Source of the DNA: a virus
Reading direction: 5' to 3' (one strand)
DNA length: 35,079 nucleotides
Virus record (IMG/VR): IMGVR_UViG_3300009151_000204
Location: 1-35,079 of that record
Below are positions 5,326-31,511 of this stretch, one piece after another (positions within the stretch are counted from its first letter, which is position 1; each line of letters starts with the position of its first letter). The notes beneath the pieces were generated by a model. That model searched no databases. It was not told where the DNA came from and saw only the letters and a program-made list of their open reading frames with translations. Position numbers and translations under genes: made by a program.

Positions 5326-5342
5326 CTGTGACATTTGCCACG

Positions 5343-5415
5343 TCTCCTCGGTTGGAATCGAACCAACGACGCACGGATTAGAAGTCCGACGCTCTATCCC
5401 CTGAGCTACGAGGAG
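5343..5415 (-). tRNA. tRNA-Arg(TCT)
   Basis: A complete 73-base cloverleaf on the minus strand. The acceptor stem CTCCTCG/CGAGGAG pairs over 7 bp, the D stem is GCTC/GAGC, and the anticodon loop CTTCTAA gives TCT (plus-strand 5380-5382). The T arm is GTTGG-TTCGATT-CCAAC. The outermost anticodon-stem pair is a T-T mismatch. CCA is not encoded. It reads AGA codons, which are frequent in the plus-strand phage genes, so it probably supplements a host with little of this tRNA. Confidence 0.95.
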
Positions 5416-12018: not shown

Positions 12019-12233
12019 GTTTATCAGCCGGAGATAGAATAGAACTCTCCATTACTCACCAAATTGTGATTAACGGAGATAACTCTTGGGTAAAACTTGG
12101 GGTTGACAGCCAAGTCTTAAAAGACGAGAATAGCGATACCGCAATTGAACGGGTTACAAATCTGGTCAATGAAAAAATTATCAAAATAATTGAAAAAACA
12201 GTCGAAACAGTAAACAGTTATGAGGGAAAATAA
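12015..12233 (+). CDS. Hypothetical protein, 72 aa
   Basis: The ATGA overlap with the upstream stop and GAGG upstream support this start. The N-terminal half is beta-rich (DRIELSITHQIVING, WVKLGVDSQV), the C-terminal half a helix with many lysines and glutamates. Similar small proteins occur next to phage single-stranded-DNA-binding proteins, but I cannot name a family. It ends just before the ssDNA-binding protein gene. Confidence 0.65.
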   Translation: MSLSAGDRIELSITHQIVINGDNSWVKLGVDSQVLKDENSDTAIERVTNLVNEKIIKIIEKTVETVNSYEGK

Positions 12234-12234
12234 A

Positions 12235-12990
12235 ATGAAATTTGGAACAGTAAAGAAAAATGAAGTAGAAATGGTTCGCTCGGGAGACTACCTGAGGAAC
12301 TTCAAAGAAGGTCAGACTAAGATTCGCTTTTTAAATGAAACAGATGAGTTTATTATGTTTCGAGAGCACTACACCTTAGAGGGTAAATCATTTCCCTGCC
12401 TTCAAGACAGTGCAAATTGCCCAGGTTGCACGAGTGAAATTGAGTCAGTCCGAAAGTCAAGCAGAAAATATGCAGTAAACGTATTGATGGTAGACAGTGG
12501 ATACGTTAACGCTGTAAAGATGCCAGTGACGCTTGTAAACAGAATTGTTACTAGATCTGAACGCAACGGCGGAACAATTACAAATCGTGATTATGTTATT
12601 TACCGTACCGGTAAAGGGCTAGAAACTGAATATGATGTCGAGCAGGACGAAAAGTACCCAGTAGAGCTTGCCCAATACGAACCAAGCCTAAAAGATATTA
12701 ACGTAATCTTGGAAACTTCATTTGAAGAAATTTGCGGACCAGTTTCTCAATTTGAGGGTTCTGTAAAGCCAAAGGCTAAAGCCGTAATTAAAGAAGAAAA
12801 AACAGAGGATTTCCCTTCTAAATCAGCAATCAATAGCGGACATGCTGATGATGAAGAAATTGACGAGTCCGCAGTCAGAGCTATGAAAATTAACGAACTG
12901 GTTGTCTTAGCGAGTCGTGCAAATTTAGACGTATCTAAAGCAGAGACACGCGAAGAAATGGTAGAACTTCTAATTGCAGAATTGGGTTAG
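12235..12990 (+). CDS. Single-stranded-DNA-binding protein (gp32-like), 251 aa
   Basis: The first 160 residues fit the OB-fold ssDNA-binding proteins of phages. GDYLRNFKEGQTKIRFL opens the domain and a zinc-binding loop is suggested by CLQDSANCPGC. The linker (about 165-215) is charged and ends in the acidic stretch ADDEEIDE, as expected of an SSB tail. Unusually, the last 35 residues form a small helical domain of SAP/HeH type (MKINELVVLASRANLDV). The start MKFGTVKK is favoured over an ATG 15 bases upstream because GAGGG fits it. A structured RNA follows directly, before the polymerase gene. Confidence 0.8.
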   Translation: MKFGTVKKNEVEMVRSGDYLRNFKEGQTKIRFLNETDEFIMFREHYTLEGKSFPCLQDSANCPGCTSEIESVRKSSRKYAVNVLMVDSGYVNAVKMPVTLVNRIVTRSERNGGTITNRDYVIYRTGKGLETEYDVEQDEKYPVELAQYEPSLKDINVILETSFEEICGPVSQFEGSVKPKAKAVIKEEKTEDFPSKSAINSGHADDEEIDESAVRAMKINELVVLASRANLDVSKAETREEMVELLIAELG

Positions 12991-12994
12991 AATA

Positions 12995-13059
12995 TCCCTG
13001 CCCACAGGGACCCCGCTCTGGAATTTTGACCAGACGGAAGGTTTGAGACCTTCGCGGGG
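12995..13059 (+). ncRNA. Compact three-way-junction RNA upstream of the polymerase
   Basis: A perfect 6-bp hairpin with loop CCCA (12995-13010) is followed at once by a three-way junction. P1 is CCCCGC/GCGGGG (13011-13016, 13054-13059), P2 TCTGG/CCAGA (13017-13034) and P3 GAAGGT/ACCTTC (13037-13053). Only two bases are unpaired in the junction. P1 ends two bases before the GTG start and includes the only G-rich stretch that could act as ribosome-binding site. No T-run follows. It is GC-rich in AT-rich DNA and looks like a translational operator. Confidence 0.65.
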
Positions 13060-13061
13060 AC

Positions 13062-15707
13062 GTGATTAAAATAAAAAGAAAATTACCAGTTTGGAACTTA
13101 CACACTCATTCTAGATATTCTGCGAATGATGCGCTTCCAACTCCTAGAGATATTGTCAACGCCGTTGCAGATATGGGACAACCAGCAATTGGCCTTACTG
13201 ACCACGGAAATATGGCTGGGTCAATCCAGCTGTACAACGCCGCGCAATCACGCGGAATAAAGCCGTTTCCTGGAACTGAACTTTACATTGTTGACGATAG
13301 GGAAAACACGAAAGCAAAACGTCATCACATGGGAATCGTTGCCTACACAACTGAAGGCTATAAAAATTTAGTTAAAATAAGTACCCTTAGCCATAAAAAC
13401 TTCCACAACAAACCTTTATTGGACTTTTCAGATTTAGCAGGATTAAGCGAAGCTGGTCTAACGAAAGGGATTGCCGCTACTTCAGGTTGTTATTTCGGCT
13501 TTGTTTCTCAAGCTGTAGTCAAAGAAGATGAATCTGCTCTCAAAAGTTACTTGCACAGTTTTAATAACTGGTTTGATAAATTTTATGTAGAACTACAAAA
13601 TCACAACATTGAACAAAATGGTTGGACCGACGAAATGGTTTCTACCTACCTATGGGATGTCGCCAGAGAAATGGGACTTCCATGCATTCTGACACAAGAT
13701 AGCCACTATATAAAGAAAGAAGATAGAAATGTCCATGAATCACTTAAACGAATGGTCGCATACGTATCAGACGCAGAAGATGCAGTCTTTCCAGGAGACG
13801 GATACCACCTTGCCGACGAACAATGGTTTCGAGACCACCATAAACCAGCCTTATTCAATTCAGGGATCGAAGGACTCCGCGACCTCTTGGGTGCGCACGA
13901 CCTTGAAATTCCAGAGCTAGATAACTATAAATATAGAATCCCGTTTACTACGGCAGACCCAGATACAGAACTGCGTACCACTTGTATTAAAAAGTTAGAA
14001 TCGCTGGGTCTGCTCAAGGGAGAATATAAAGAAAGACTAGAAAGTGAATTTGACATTATTCTTGACACTGGAATGGCTGGATATTTACTTTTAGTAAAAG
14101 AAGTAACCGATTGGTGCAAAGATAATAAAATTTTTTATCAAGCAAGAGGGTCCGCATCGGGTTCAATTGTTTGTTGGATGCTGGGAATTACTCAAGTTGA
14201 TCCCGTCAAGTGGAAGCTGCGTTTTGAGCGCTTTATTTCTAGAGACCGAACAAAGCCTCCAGATATTGATTTGGACGTTGAGCACCTTCGCAGACAAGAA
14301 CTAATCGAATGGCTTGAAACTAGATTTTCGGTTAATCAAATTGGTACATGGCTAGAACATTCAATTACTGGAGACGATGAAGAATCTAAAGGGAGCCTCA
14401 GGGTTAGATACTACGCACGTCAAAAGATGAACGGTGTCACAAATCCAGTCCCGTGGAACAAAATTCCACAAGAAGATAGAGACATGCTAAAGCAAATCTC
14501 TCAGTTCTCTCCATACAACGCATATGGAACGCACGCTGCTGGTTTGGTTGTCACTACAACTTCTGATGAATTTAACTCACTAGTACCACTAATGATGGTC
14601 GCATCTTCCAAAACCCTGGTTTCTCAATATGACATGGGAGACGTAGAAAAACTTGGCTTAGTCAAACTTGACGTACTTGGGCTTAAAACTCTTTCTATAT
14701 TAAACAAAGCAATGATAAATTTGGATAAAGATCCGCTCGATGGTCTTGATTGGATACCTTTAGACGATTCAAAAACCTTTACTGCAATATCTAAGGGAAG
14801 AACGGAAGGCGTGTTTCAGCTGGAAGGGATATCGGCCAAGTACGGTTGTATGGAATTAAAGCCCAATAAAATTACCGATATTGTTGCAGCTATGGCTTTG
14901 TTCAGACCGGCAACTATGGATTCTGGTGCAACAAAAACTTATATTAAGCGCAAGCATAAAGAAGAAAGTATTCCTGAGATGCATCAAATCATTTCAAAAA
15001 ATACAAAAGCCACTTATGGAATTATGCTTTTTCAAGAACAAGTCATATCTATTCTTAGAGACCTCGGAATGGACGCAGATAATTTAACGTCTTTTCTCAA
15101 GGCGGTAAAATCCTCTAATTCAGACATTGGGGATGCCGGCGGAGTAATTGCTGGATACAAATCTCGCGTACAAGAAATGTCAGTTGAAAAAGGTATGAAC
15201 GAAAACGATTTTGCGTGGTTATGGGAAGCAATCGAAGGTTTTGCGGCATACGGATTTAATCAAGCACATTCGGTTGCGTATGGACTTACTGCTTATAGAT
15301 GCGCATATCTAGCGCAAAACCATCCAATTGAGTTTTTTGCCGCGGTTTTATCCGTGGCCGCCGGAACCGATAAAGAGCAAAACTACATTGCCGCTGCTAG
15401 AAAGTATGGAGTAAGAATTTTATCCTCTGACGTTCAATATTCTGGCGTCACATACACAGTGGACAAAAAAAGAAAATCAATCAGAAAAGGTTTATTATCA
15501 ATTAAAGGAGTAGGCGAAAAGGCAGCGATAGAAATTATTAATGCCAGGCCAGATGGTGGATGGAAAAATAAAGAAGATTTCGCCAGTACTGTTAGCCACA
15601 GAAAAGTTACTGGAATTAAAGCCTTAAAAGAAGGAGATTCAACAGTGGGAACAATTGGCAAACTGCACGAATCTGGAGCGTTAGAGAGTTTGTATGAAGC
15701 CGTTTGA
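13062..15707 (+). CDS. dnaE: DNA polymerase III alpha subunit, DnaE type, 881 aa
   Basis: Replicative C-family polymerase. The N-terminal PHP domain keeps its metal ligands (HTHSRYS near 14-20, LTDHGNM near 46-51, RHHMGIVAY). The palm catalytic aspartates lie in PDIDLD near residue 400 and in KLDVLGLKTL near 537. The finger region includes MLFQEQVI and AAYGFNQAHSVAYG. The C-terminus has a helix-hairpin-helix (SIKGVGEKAA). At 881 residues it is shorter than bacterial DnaE (about 1100-1200) and lacks room for the OB-fold and tau-binding domains. The start is GTG, within a possible RNA operator. It overlaps the HNH gene by 14 bases. Confidence 0.93.
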   Translation: MIKIKRKLPVWNLHTHSRYSANDALPTPRDIVNAVADMGQPAIGLTDHGNMAGSIQLYNAAQSRGIKPFPGTELYIVDDRENTKAKRHHMGIVAYTTEGYKNLVKISTLSHKNFHNKPLLDFSDLAGLSEAGLTKGIAATSGCYFGFVSQAVVKEDESALKSYLHSFNNWFDKFYVELQNHNIEQNGWTDEMVSTYLWDVAREMGLPCILTQDSHYIKKEDRNVHESLKRMVAYVSDAEDAVFPGDGYHLADEQWFRDHHKPALFNSGIEGLRDLLGAHDLEIPELDNYKYRIPFTTADPDTELRTTCIKKLESLGLLKGEYKERLESEFDIILDTGMAGYLLLVKEVTDWCKDNKIFYQARGSASGSIVCWMLGITQVDPVKWKLRFERFISRDRTKPPDIDLDVEHLRRQELIEWLETRFSVNQIGTWLEHSITGDDEESKGSLRVRYYARQKMNGVTNPVPWNKIPQEDRDMLKQISQFSPYNAYGTHAAGLVVTTTSDEFNSLVPLMMVASSKTLVSQYDMGDVEKLGLVKLDVLGLKTLSILNKAMINLDKDPLDGLDWIPLDDSKTFTAISKGRTEGVFQLEGISAKYGCMELKPNKITDIVAAMALFRPATMDSGATKTYIKRKHKEESIPEMHQIISKNTKATYGIMLFQEQVISILRDLGMDADNLTSFLKAVKSSNSDIGDAGGVIAGYKSRVQEMSVEKGMNENDFAWLWEAIEGFAAYGFNQAHSVAYGLTAYRCAYLAQNHPIEFFAAVLSVAAGTDKEQNYIAAARKYGVRILSSDVQYSGVTYTVDKKRKSIRKGLLSIKGVGEKAAIEIINARPDGGWKNKEDFASTVSHRKVTGIKALKEGDSTVGTIGKLHESGALESLYEAV

Positions 15708-28059: not shown

Positions 28060-28112
28060 CCTGGCTAGTATTATTTGAGACAATTAGACAATAGTTGCCC
28101 ATAGGAGCAGAT

Positions 28113-31100
28113 GTGACATTCAATCCAATTTCAAGAGCTAAACTCGGCGTAGCTGCAGACGACCCATTTTTTGATGATGATGCAGCGGCAAAGATGTACC
28201 ACGAGATTAGCAAAATGGATCAAGATGAAGCCACTGTTTTGCTGCAGATGGCTGCTTTTCACGTTGCAGCAAGAGACCTTACCCGCTACGGCGAAGTCAT
28301 TGAGGCTGGATACAACAAAGAGATTGCCAAGCGCGCAGAACGCGTAAAAGGCACACTTACTCGCAATCTAATTTCAAAGGGAAAAGACCCCGCACCATAT
28401 CTTGCCTATTTAGACGAAATCTCCAAAGCCGTTGATCCAATCACTGATTGGGATATATCTAATAGAGTAAAGCGACAGTTGCGCGATCCAGGTGGACGTT
28501 TCCGCGTCATGACTCACAAAATTGAGCCAAATATTCTTGATAAACCCATCAGAGCGGGAGAAGCGCAAAAACTTGGTATCCCAAAGCCATCTAGGGCTGG
28601 AGGAACTGATAAAGGTGTGCGTCTAGACGATGCTGCCAATAAGAAGTTTCAAGGCGATTACTATCAAGTATCTAATCTTTTAAAAACCATCCAAAATGAT
28701 CCAATTACAGCTAAGGGCGCAGTCGTAACCCTTAATTACACGGATGGTACGACTGATCAATTCCTGACTACTGAGGGACAAGACAAATTAAAAGATAAGT
28801 TTGCGGGAGAGAAATACGCAACCGGCAATCGTGTAGCCTCTGTAGACTTAAGTTTCTTGCGAGAAGATAACCCTCAAATCGACCTCATGTCAGCAATGGG
28901 AGTTCCCGGTGGCGGTATGAGAAATCAAGCTATTAATTACATGTCAAACGTCAACGGTCAAGATAAAGCTTTGGTTGATTACGGCACTAGCATGAATTCA
29001 TATAGAGACACAGACGTATTAAACCCAGCAGACCGTGCCTACAGAAGACTTGGTGCGACGGCAAATCTTCTTTCTAACATACTTCCGGACTCTGCAATTA
29101 AGACTCAACTTGCTCTTAACGCTGCCAAATGGGCAGGATTTAACGCCACTGAGGTTGAACGTGTTATAGGACCGGGAGCACGTAAAGTGGCTTACCGATA
29201 CCGAGGCATCGAAAAAGCTCCTAATCCTGGGCTACAAAAAACTATTGACGCCTATATTGCTGGAACCAAGGGTAATAAGGACAAGGCTAGAGATATTCTC
29301 ATTAACGGTTCCAATGTTGAAATGGCCACAAACAATGGAGTTCGTCAAGAATTCAAGGAAAGCCCAATCATTCAGTACTTGGTTAAAGATCTTCCAAAGA
29401 AAGAATTGGTAAACCTTCAGACTAAATCGGGAGCGATGCCACCCTCACGTGGATATATTATTGATCGCAACGGAAAGATTATTACTGAAGCTGCCGGCTA
29501 CGGAGATGACCATTATCTTCCGTTTAACCTAAAAAACATCTCAAAGCTAAAAGGCGGAGAATACGTACGTACGCGTACGCTAGGTGGACCTACTACAGAA
29601 GACATCTACGCAGGCCTCATTTCTGGTGCTCGTAGCGTCACCGTTGTATCGCGCTCAGGTATCTACACCGTAGAGTTTGATGAAGCTTTCCGTGGATCGC
29701 GTCGCTATAACGATAAGGCCGCTCGTATGGTTGGCCGTTATGGAATGATTCTTGATGCCGTTAAGAGCGGAGATGTAACTCTCGAAACGGTACCTGGCGA
29801 CAGAATCGAAGAACTCAAATCTGAGGCATTCCGACTATACCCAGACGAAACCAGCGAAGGCTATGCGAGAGAACTTAATAGATTAAAGAAAGTTGAAGAA
29901 TCTAATCCTCGCATGTCGCAGACGCGTTTGGACGAGACCGCCAGAGAATTCCTTCGCACAGTAGCTTCGCGCCAGAAGACCAGAGATGGCTCTGAAATGA
30001 CCTATGACGAAATGGTTGCAGGTCTTATCAATAGAGACGTAGCAACACAGGTCGCGGAAGACACAGCATGGCTGGGTGGCATTCAAGGGGCACCTACTGG
30101 AACCATTGAAGCTAACGCTAGAGAAATGATTGCTACCAAATACAAGAACCCAGAAGCAATTATTAATACCATTGGTCTAGACGACGAATATAACAAATTC
30201 TTTGAAACCCAGATGAAAACCTATAAGGCTTCGCAAGCACCATTGCGCCTAGACGGTCCGGGATATGCTTTTGCACTTGACGCAATGAAAGAACAATTCC
30301 CTTATTACATTAAGAGCATCAAATATCGCCAGCTTAATCAGTCGGACGCTGATACTCGCAGGGACGTTGGTTATGTTAAACCTAATTTCACGCGTCCAGA
30401 AGGTGTTCAGGCTGGATACTACGATGCTTCAATTAATGGATCAAAGAAGATTAGCGCTGACCGTCTTAACTATCAAAACCTAAGAGTGGTGGGAACTTAC
30501 GATAGATCTGGCGGACAACAGCCCGTAGATTACAATCCCCCTGCAAATCGTAGAGCAGAAACGAACAACGGTAATGAGGACAAAAACGTTGGATTTGGGG
30601 ATACCAGAACACCAAACAGTAATCCGGAAACAAAAAAGAATTCAGCAAAAGACGTAAGAGAAATGTTCCAAAAACGTACTGCTACCGACAGAAACTATAA
30701 TTCTCCTAAATTTGGCGTGGTTGCTAGCGGGTCAGAACTCGATGTGCACTTCAAAGCAGCTTTTCCATTTACCTTTGGCATGACTCCTACAGAATTTGAT
30801 GAAGCTTGGGACGACAATCCAGACATGGTTGAAGCTTCAATGAAAAGAGAAATTGCTCAGTTGAGAGAGTTCTTCACTCTAGGAAACAGCGAATCTGCCA
30901 AGTTATTTGCCTTTAACAATGGTGGAAATGTGCCAATCATGAAATATGACAGACTAAACCCACCGTTGTCTGAAATTCTAAAAGGATCAAAATTTGACTT
31001 TGGCGACCCTCTGTTTATGCCTGGAATTGAATCCGACAGAATTAAAGCAAAACTTGAAACTGATCCAAATCTAGCTGGCGCCAAGGCTAAAATTGTAGGA

Positions 31101-31511
31101 GCACTAGAAGCGGCTAAAATGCCTAAAGAGATGCTTACCGAGCCAACACCAGAATTGGTAAGGGCGATTAAAGAAATAGTGAACCAACAGGTAAAAAATG
31201 TTCAAGCAATCAAAACAGACCAGGAGAGCACTGGTATGAAAGTTTACGGCCCAGAACGTTTAACGCAAGAAGCAAATTCCTTGGCCGATTTAACCAAAGT
31301 ATGGCAACTTACGGACAATTATGTCCAGTCTGTAATAACAGAGGCCAAAACTGCTCGTGAGCGTCAAATGATTGAGTCTGGGGCGGGTTCCGGTCCGCGG
31401 GTTATTGGCTTGAATGTAAATGACGAAGATGCTATGAATAAAATTATTGAAGCCTTTGGACTTCCTAAGAATAAGGTTATTGACGAAAACGGAAACTACG
31501 TAGATGTCTGA
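28113..31511 (+). CDS. Large protein of unknown function, 1132 aa
   Basis: The start is GTG 28113 with AGGAG six to seven bases upstream; a TTG at 28095 lies before that site. The protein is soluble, charged and without membrane helices or cysteine clusters. The first 150 residues are helical. A middle section (430-560) is beta-rich (SRGYIIDRNGKIITEAAG, ISGARSVTVVSRSGIYTVEF). A disordered linker rich in Asn, Pro and Arg lies near 780-850, followed by a helical C-terminus. It lies between head and fibre genes, so a structural or injected virion protein is likely. Confidence 0.7.
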   Translation: MTFNPISRAKLGVAADDPFFDDDAAAKMYHEISKMDQDEATVLLQMAAFHVAARDLTRYGEVIEAGYNKEIAKRAERVKGTLTRNLISKGKDPAPYLAYLDEISKAVDPITDWDISNRVKRQLRDPGGRFRVMTHKIEPNILDKPIRAGEAQKLGIPKPSRAGGTDKGVRLDDAANKKFQGDYYQVSNLLKTIQNDPITAKGAVVTLNYTDGTTDQFLTTEGQDKLKDKFAGEKYATGNRVASVDLSFLREDNPQIDLMSAMGVPGGGMRNQAINYMSNVNGQDKALVDYGTSMNSYRDTDVLNPADRAYRRLGATANLLSNILPDSAIKTQLALNAAKWAGFNATEVERVIGPGARKVAYRYRGIEKAPNPGLQKTIDAYIAGTKGNKDKARDILINGSNVEMATNNGVRQEFKESPIIQYLVKDLPKKELVNLQTKSGAMPPSRGYIIDRNGKIITEAAGYGDDHYLPFNLKNISKLKGGEYVRTRTLGGPTTEDIYAGLISGARSVTVVSRSGIYTVEFDEAFRGSRRYNDKAARMVGRYGMILDAVKSGDVTLETVPGDRIEELKSEAFRLYPDETSEGYARELNRLKKVEESNPRMSQTRLDETAREFLRTVASRQKTRDGSEMTYDEMVAGLINRDVATQVAEDTAWLGGIQGAPTGTIEANAREMIATKYKNPEAIINTIGLDDEYNKFFETQMKTYKASQAPLRLDGPGYAFALDAMKEQFPYYIKSIKYRQLNQSDADTRRDVGYVKPNFTRPEGVQAGYYDASINGSKKISADRLNYQNLRVVGTYDRSGGQQPVDYNPPANRRAETNNGNEDKNVGFGDTRTPNSNPETKKNSAKDVREMFQKRTATDRNYNSPKFGVVASGSELDVHFKAAFPFTFGMTPTEFDEAWDDNPDMVEASMKREIAQLREFFTLGNSESAKLFAFNNGGNVPIMKYDRLNPPLSEILKGSKFDFGDPLFMPGIESDRIKAKLETDPNLAGAKAKIVGALEAAKMPKEMLTEPTPELVRAIKEIVNQQVKNVQAIKTDQESTGMKVYGPERLTQEANSLADLTKVWQLTDNYVQSVITEAKTARERQMIESGAGSGPRVIGLNVNDEDAMNKIIEAFGLPKNKVIDENGNYVDV

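Follow-up and report, generated by a model that had tools for sequence, protein, structure and literature searches.

The DNA analysed here is a viral stretch of 35,079 nt (IMG/VR record IMGVR_UViG_3300009151_000204, positions 1 to 35,079), hereafter called the window. On its plus strand, a gene for a single-strand DNA-binding protein (ssb, 12235-12990), assigned through the PHROG ssDNA-binding families, is followed by dnaE (13062-15707), which encodes a DNA polymerase III alpha of 881 residues (Pfam and PHROGs). Two in-frame ATG codons could open ssb, and the one at 12235, which has the better (good) Shine-Dalgarno energy, is probably the start rather than that of the longer frame at 12220. 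Between the ssb stop codon (TAG, 12988-12990) and the GTG of dnaE lie 71 nt that hold a hairpin and a three-way junction. The GTG at 13062 is a credible start codon, since the residues that follow it match the N-terminus of relatives, (M/V)(K/I)IK(K/R).., whose upstream sequence is unrelated.

A DNA-level search among cultured phages returned no relative of the window, and a scan of the genome collection gave only distant dnaE genes (29-38% identity), located on bacterial contigs. By dnaE and portal, the nearest cultured phages are those of Brevibacterium, Gordonia and Arthrobacter; since these relatives infect Actinobacteria, the host is probably an actinobacterium. Elsewhere in the window, between portal-side and tail-fibre-like genes, a 1138-aa open frame (28095-31511, plus strand) has no PHROG match and may encode a structural protein, perhaps a tape measure.

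Structure of the element

The hairpin, on the plus strand like the rest of the element, consists of 6 bp closing a 4-nt loop (12995-13000 with 13005-13010). The three-way junction (13011-13059) ends two bases before the dnaE GTG. Its stem P1 pairs CCCCGC (13011-13016) with GCGGGG (13054-13059) over 6 bp; P2 is a single interior arm of 5 bp, with TCTGG (13017-13021) and CCAGA (13030-13034) on either side of 8 nt; and P3 is formed by GAAGG (13037-13041) and CCTTC (13049-13053), which close the 7-nt loop TTTGAGA with 5 bp, lengthened to 7 bp by RNAfold. Only two junction bases, C13035 and G13036, are unpaired. The minimum-energy and centroid folds agree (-34 kcal/mol), and for 12991-13061 the z-score is -4.64, with none of 200 shuffles folding as well. 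The positions and pairing of the hairpin and junction given in the original prediction thus hold. Its placement of the element on the ribosome-binding site of the polymerase gene does not: this site is weak, the best anti-Shine-Dalgarno pairing upstream of the GTG being -2.7 kcal/mol, against a median of -6.1 kcal/mol for 45 candidate genes of the window. With its GTG and this weak pairing, dnaE resembles the leaderless genes of Actinobacteria, which combine an RTG start with no Shine-Dalgarno sequence.

Two of the three junction stems read as the acceptor stem (P1) and the T-arm (P3) of a tRNA, followed by A-C and then by the start codon. The T-arm displays the signature T54, R57 and A58 with the closing pair G53-C61; position 56 is a T, not a C, which fits the missing D-arm. 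The A-C at 13060-13061 corresponds to the discriminator (position 73) and position 74, and is read as a tRNA 3' end because C directly follows the discriminator in all 13 bona fide tRNAs found in phage records. The place of the D and anticodon arms is occupied by the one interior arm (13017-13034) with its 8-nt loop, so that the D-arm and an anticodon arm with a 7-nt anticodon loop are both missing; the acceptor/T stack is 11 bp (vs 12 bp), with a C at +1. These departures, together with the T at position 56, may affect how well the element would serve as a substrate of RNase P and RNase Z. ARAGORN does not call the element as a tRNA, and Rfam gives nothing at the site at gathering score, the tRNA model included. 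That the element is a minimal tRNA-like unit and not a tRNA is well supported; a T4-like operator or a riboswitch is not its best reading.

The tRNAs that the scan picked up in the phage contigs L233, L234, L237, L243, L244, L245 and L249 all encode C74, mostly without a full CCA. The window also carries a tRNA-Arg(TCT) on the minus strand (5342-5415), without encoded CCA and followed by A-C-GTG. We rejected it as a second abutting case: the frame opened by this GTG is only 16 codons long and passes through a hairpin that, with its T run, resembles a terminator, and the arrangement is probably a coincidence.

The element in relatives

Relatives were compared upstream of dnaE, with a scan for T-arm plus acceptor stem that left the loop letters free. 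In L002, L007-L009, L011, L027 and L043/L044, dnaE is preceded by these two stems at the same spacing as in the window. Counting L047/L048, whose abutting element is probable and whose acceptor pairing is ambiguous, a tRNA-like unit directly abuts the coding sequence (A-C-GTG, 13060-13064 in the window) in seven lineages, one of them weak. The tail has the form acceptor-A-C-GTG, or G-C-ATG in L011; the abutting starts are all GTG or ATG, and N-C-RTG at the dnaE start ends six of the eight elements. In L012 and L221 the element stands farther off, at 29 and 40 nt from the start, and no leaderless message would result there.

The window, L002 and L043 each have one arm as their interior, a part that varies in length and sequence among relatives, which do not conserve P2. 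L007/L008 have a degenerate four-arm unit matched over its full length by the Rfam tRNA model (21.7 bits, E 5e-4), and in L027 an intact tRNA-Leu(CAA) gene fills the site. True tRNAs lie 30-140 nt upstream of dnaE in L014, L023 and L032. When the elements are folded alone, acceptor stem and T-arm belong to the minimum-energy fold in seven of eight cases, and lie 1.6 kcal/mol above the minimum in L002. Hairpins 0-2 nt upstream of the acceptor are also found in L007, L011, L012 and L221, and in neither L002 nor L043. Shine-Dalgarno sequences are weak or missing at most element-bearing starts, the best pairing being -0.9 kcal/mol in L007, -1.5 in L011 and +0.4 in L027; the G-rich acceptor 3' strands of L002 and L047 offer a possible weak one (-3.6 and -4.8 kcal/mol).

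Of the 25 relatives searched, 23 have an ssb homologue no more than about 2 kb upstream of dnaE. In L002, L012, L221, L027 and L047, other sequence stands between the two genes and the element remains near dnaE; it appears to belong to the dnaE start and not to the upstream gene. A T-arm and acceptor stem ending two bases before an RTG was found at 5 of 10 dnaE starts. Among the other RTG triplets in these records, about 23,095 in number, 16 have it, one of them behind the tRNA-Arg of the window.

Evidence for selection on the paired stems

Covariation was assessed on a gap-free alignment of acceptor stem and T-arm from eight lineages. In this set, which was assembled by structure and so itself favours pairing, 88 of 88 cells are paired, 36 of them changed on both sides, and 10 of the 11 pairs show such both-sided changes; the covariation score is 1.21, vs 0.25 after shuffling and at most 0.23 with the partner slid. 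None of the eight elements departs from the pair G53-C61 or from C74, though neither feature was used to choose them. For that reason this invariance weighs more as evidence than the pairing, and it is what would be expected of a tRNA. The original prediction had proposed compensatory change in P1-P3 among homologues as its own test: P1 and P3 pass it, while P2 varies in length and sequence. The prediction is thus partly supported: the element is an RNA structure under selection and linked to the polymerase start.

Relatives without the element

Several dnaE relatives lack any such element. In L004, L005 and L003 the upstream gene overlaps dnaE or lies close to it, mostly with a good Shine-Dalgarno sequence. 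In many others (L013, L014, L017-L019, L026 and L029) a hairpin of 12-19 bp stands between ssb and dnaE, in some followed by a T run. Because element-free relatives either overlap or adjoin dnaE or carry hairpins, the ssb-dnaE junction seems to need segmentation, the tRNA-like element being one way to achieve it. Among the cultured dnaE relatives (Cantare, GMA6, DalanDe and ChisanaKitsune), coding sequence abuts or overlaps dnaE and leaves no room for the element. On the dnaE tree the element is scattered over a divergent clade, with absences, a distribution compatible with a single gain and losses or with repeated capture.

Discussion

We consider it fairly probable that the tRNA-like element is a processing signal between ssb and dnaE, a case of tRNA punctuation. 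In the proposed scheme, host RNase P would cut between 13010 and 13011, giving an ssb mRNA with the hairpin 12995-13010 as its 3' end. A host tRNA 3' endonuclease, either RNase Z or an actinobacterial activity that cuts CCA between its Cs, would then cut after A13060 or C13061. Cleavage after A-C would let the dnaE mRNA begin exactly with 5'-GUG; RNase Z cutting in its standard way, after position 73, would give C-GUG. We infer that the dnaE message would be leaderless after this processing and translated as such. Initiation on the uncut message looks poor, because only two bases separate a stem from the GTG and anti-Shine-Dalgarno pairing is weak. From one transcript, abundant SSB could thereby be separated from scarce polymerase, and polymerase synthesis would be made dependent on tRNA-type processing. 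Actinobacteria translate leaderless mRNAs well. Terminator and promoter readings of the element were rejected: the scan of 12100-13200 found no intrinsic terminator (GC-rich hairpin and T run), and no promoter-like site lies where it would start transcription at the GTG. That a phage lineage has arrived independently at punctuation of the mitochondrial type, or has re-made it repeatedly from tRNA genes, with host tRNA-maturation enzymes cutting a leaderless polymerase mRNA free, is in our estimate about as likely as not.

In mitochondria, tRNAs are cut out of transcripts by RNase P and RNase Z, and the mRNAs so freed are leaderless. The phage arrangement shares with this system a tRNA or degenerate tRNA that abuts the start codon, forms that lack the D-arm, and a start codon that coincides with the predicted 3' cut or adjoins it. 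It differs in belonging to a DNA phage of bacteria, in serving not a whole genome but a single junction, the one before dnaE, in being mostly no functional tRNA, and in that cleavage is here predicted. tRNA-like structures cleaved by RNase P within bacterial mRNAs or phage RNAs have been described for the his operon, M3 RNA and C4 RNA (PMC11143913); these too are tRNA-like substrates inside an mRNA or phage RNA, whereas the phage element also positions its 3' end, exactly at the start codon. As in actinobacterial leaderless mRNAs, the RTG of dnaE is predicted to form the 5' end or to lie one base from it, with no Shine-Dalgarno sequence. For the known leaderless mRNAs of Actinobacteria, the reported origin is transcription that starts at the RTG itself (PMC4633059), in contrast to dnaE, whose 5' end would arise by processing. 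Cleavage of encoded CCA ends between the two Cs has been reported in Streptomyces coelicolor and Propionibacterium acnes (PMC4681348, PMC3848588). The open-licence papers searched yielded no phage case of such an element, which does not by itself prove absence.

The salivarius-1 RNA of Rfam (RF03030) aligns over its full length with window positions 13009-13063 at 24.9 bits (E 0.002). It is likewise a three-way junction, of 56 nt, with a similar UUUGAG loop, but it occurs in prophage regions of Ligilactobacillus salivarius and does not abut a start codon. Membership was rejected, as the score is half the gathering score of 50 and the model finds no match in the relatives. The salivarius-1 copies in prophage regions of L228/L229 also fold into a three-way junction whose loop is of the UUUGAG type, and salivarius-1 might itself be tRNA-like.

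Other readings of the locus have to be weighed against tRNA punctuation with a leaderless dnaE message. The element might only segment the transcript and protect the end of the upstream mRNA, abutment being a by-product of a compact genome and dnaE being read from whichever 5' end is there. The elements that stand 29 and 40 nt from the start agree with this, as do the hairpins of element-free relatives, in which segmentation seems wanted; yet six of the eight elements end exactly in N-C-RTG, with little Shine-Dalgarno sequence there, and we regard this reading as unlikely. The original prediction favoured an operator or ligand-sensing leader, in which initiation would be blocked once the junction is bound by polymerase, SSB or a small molecule. 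The stable fold and its site at the polymerase start suit that idea, and in phage T4 the genes for gp43 and gp32 carry translational operators, RNA structures at the start of replication genes. Unlike those, the element displays no conserved operator loop sequence shared among relatives. Its interior arm and loops vary, except for the T-loop, the only conserved loop, with its tRNA-type positions. Moreover, L027 has a true tRNA gene at this site, and an obligatory autoregulatory operator would not predict its absence from several dnaE relatives. These observations speak against the operator or sensor, which we hold to be very improbable.

What is kept matches what tRNA-processing enzymes read, since no loop other than the T-loop is conserved and P2 and the interior vary. 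If the punctuation reading is true, a tRNA could shrink to acceptor stem and T-arm, retaining only the parts that these enzymes read. The units might instead be decaying phage tRNA genes, lying before dnaE by chance and without present function: phage tRNA genes are common, an intact one occupies the site in L027, and true tRNAs lie a little upstream in three further relatives. Decay would erode the acceptor stem and T-arm too, whereas these have kept every pair through compensatory changes even where the interior has gone, and the exact spacing to the RTG is retained; we give this account very little credence. Least plausible, in our view, is a tRNA mimic that stays uncut and itself brings in the ribosome, in the manner of a small internal ribosome entry site. 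The tRNA-like shape, lying immediately 5' of a start codon that has little Shine-Dalgarno sequence, would suit it, but the interior is not conserved, and a stem two bases before the start should clash with the mRNA channel of the ribosome unless removed.

For annotation, the element shows that a tRNA-like unit can end one base before a coding sequence, and it is a candidate natural minimal substrate of RNase P and RNase Z. If the punctuation reading is true, tRNA punctuation, known from mitochondria, would also operate in bacterial viruses, and leaderless mRNAs would be made in bacteria by tRNA-type processing and not by promoter position. The phage would in this way obtain much SSB and little polymerase from one transcript.
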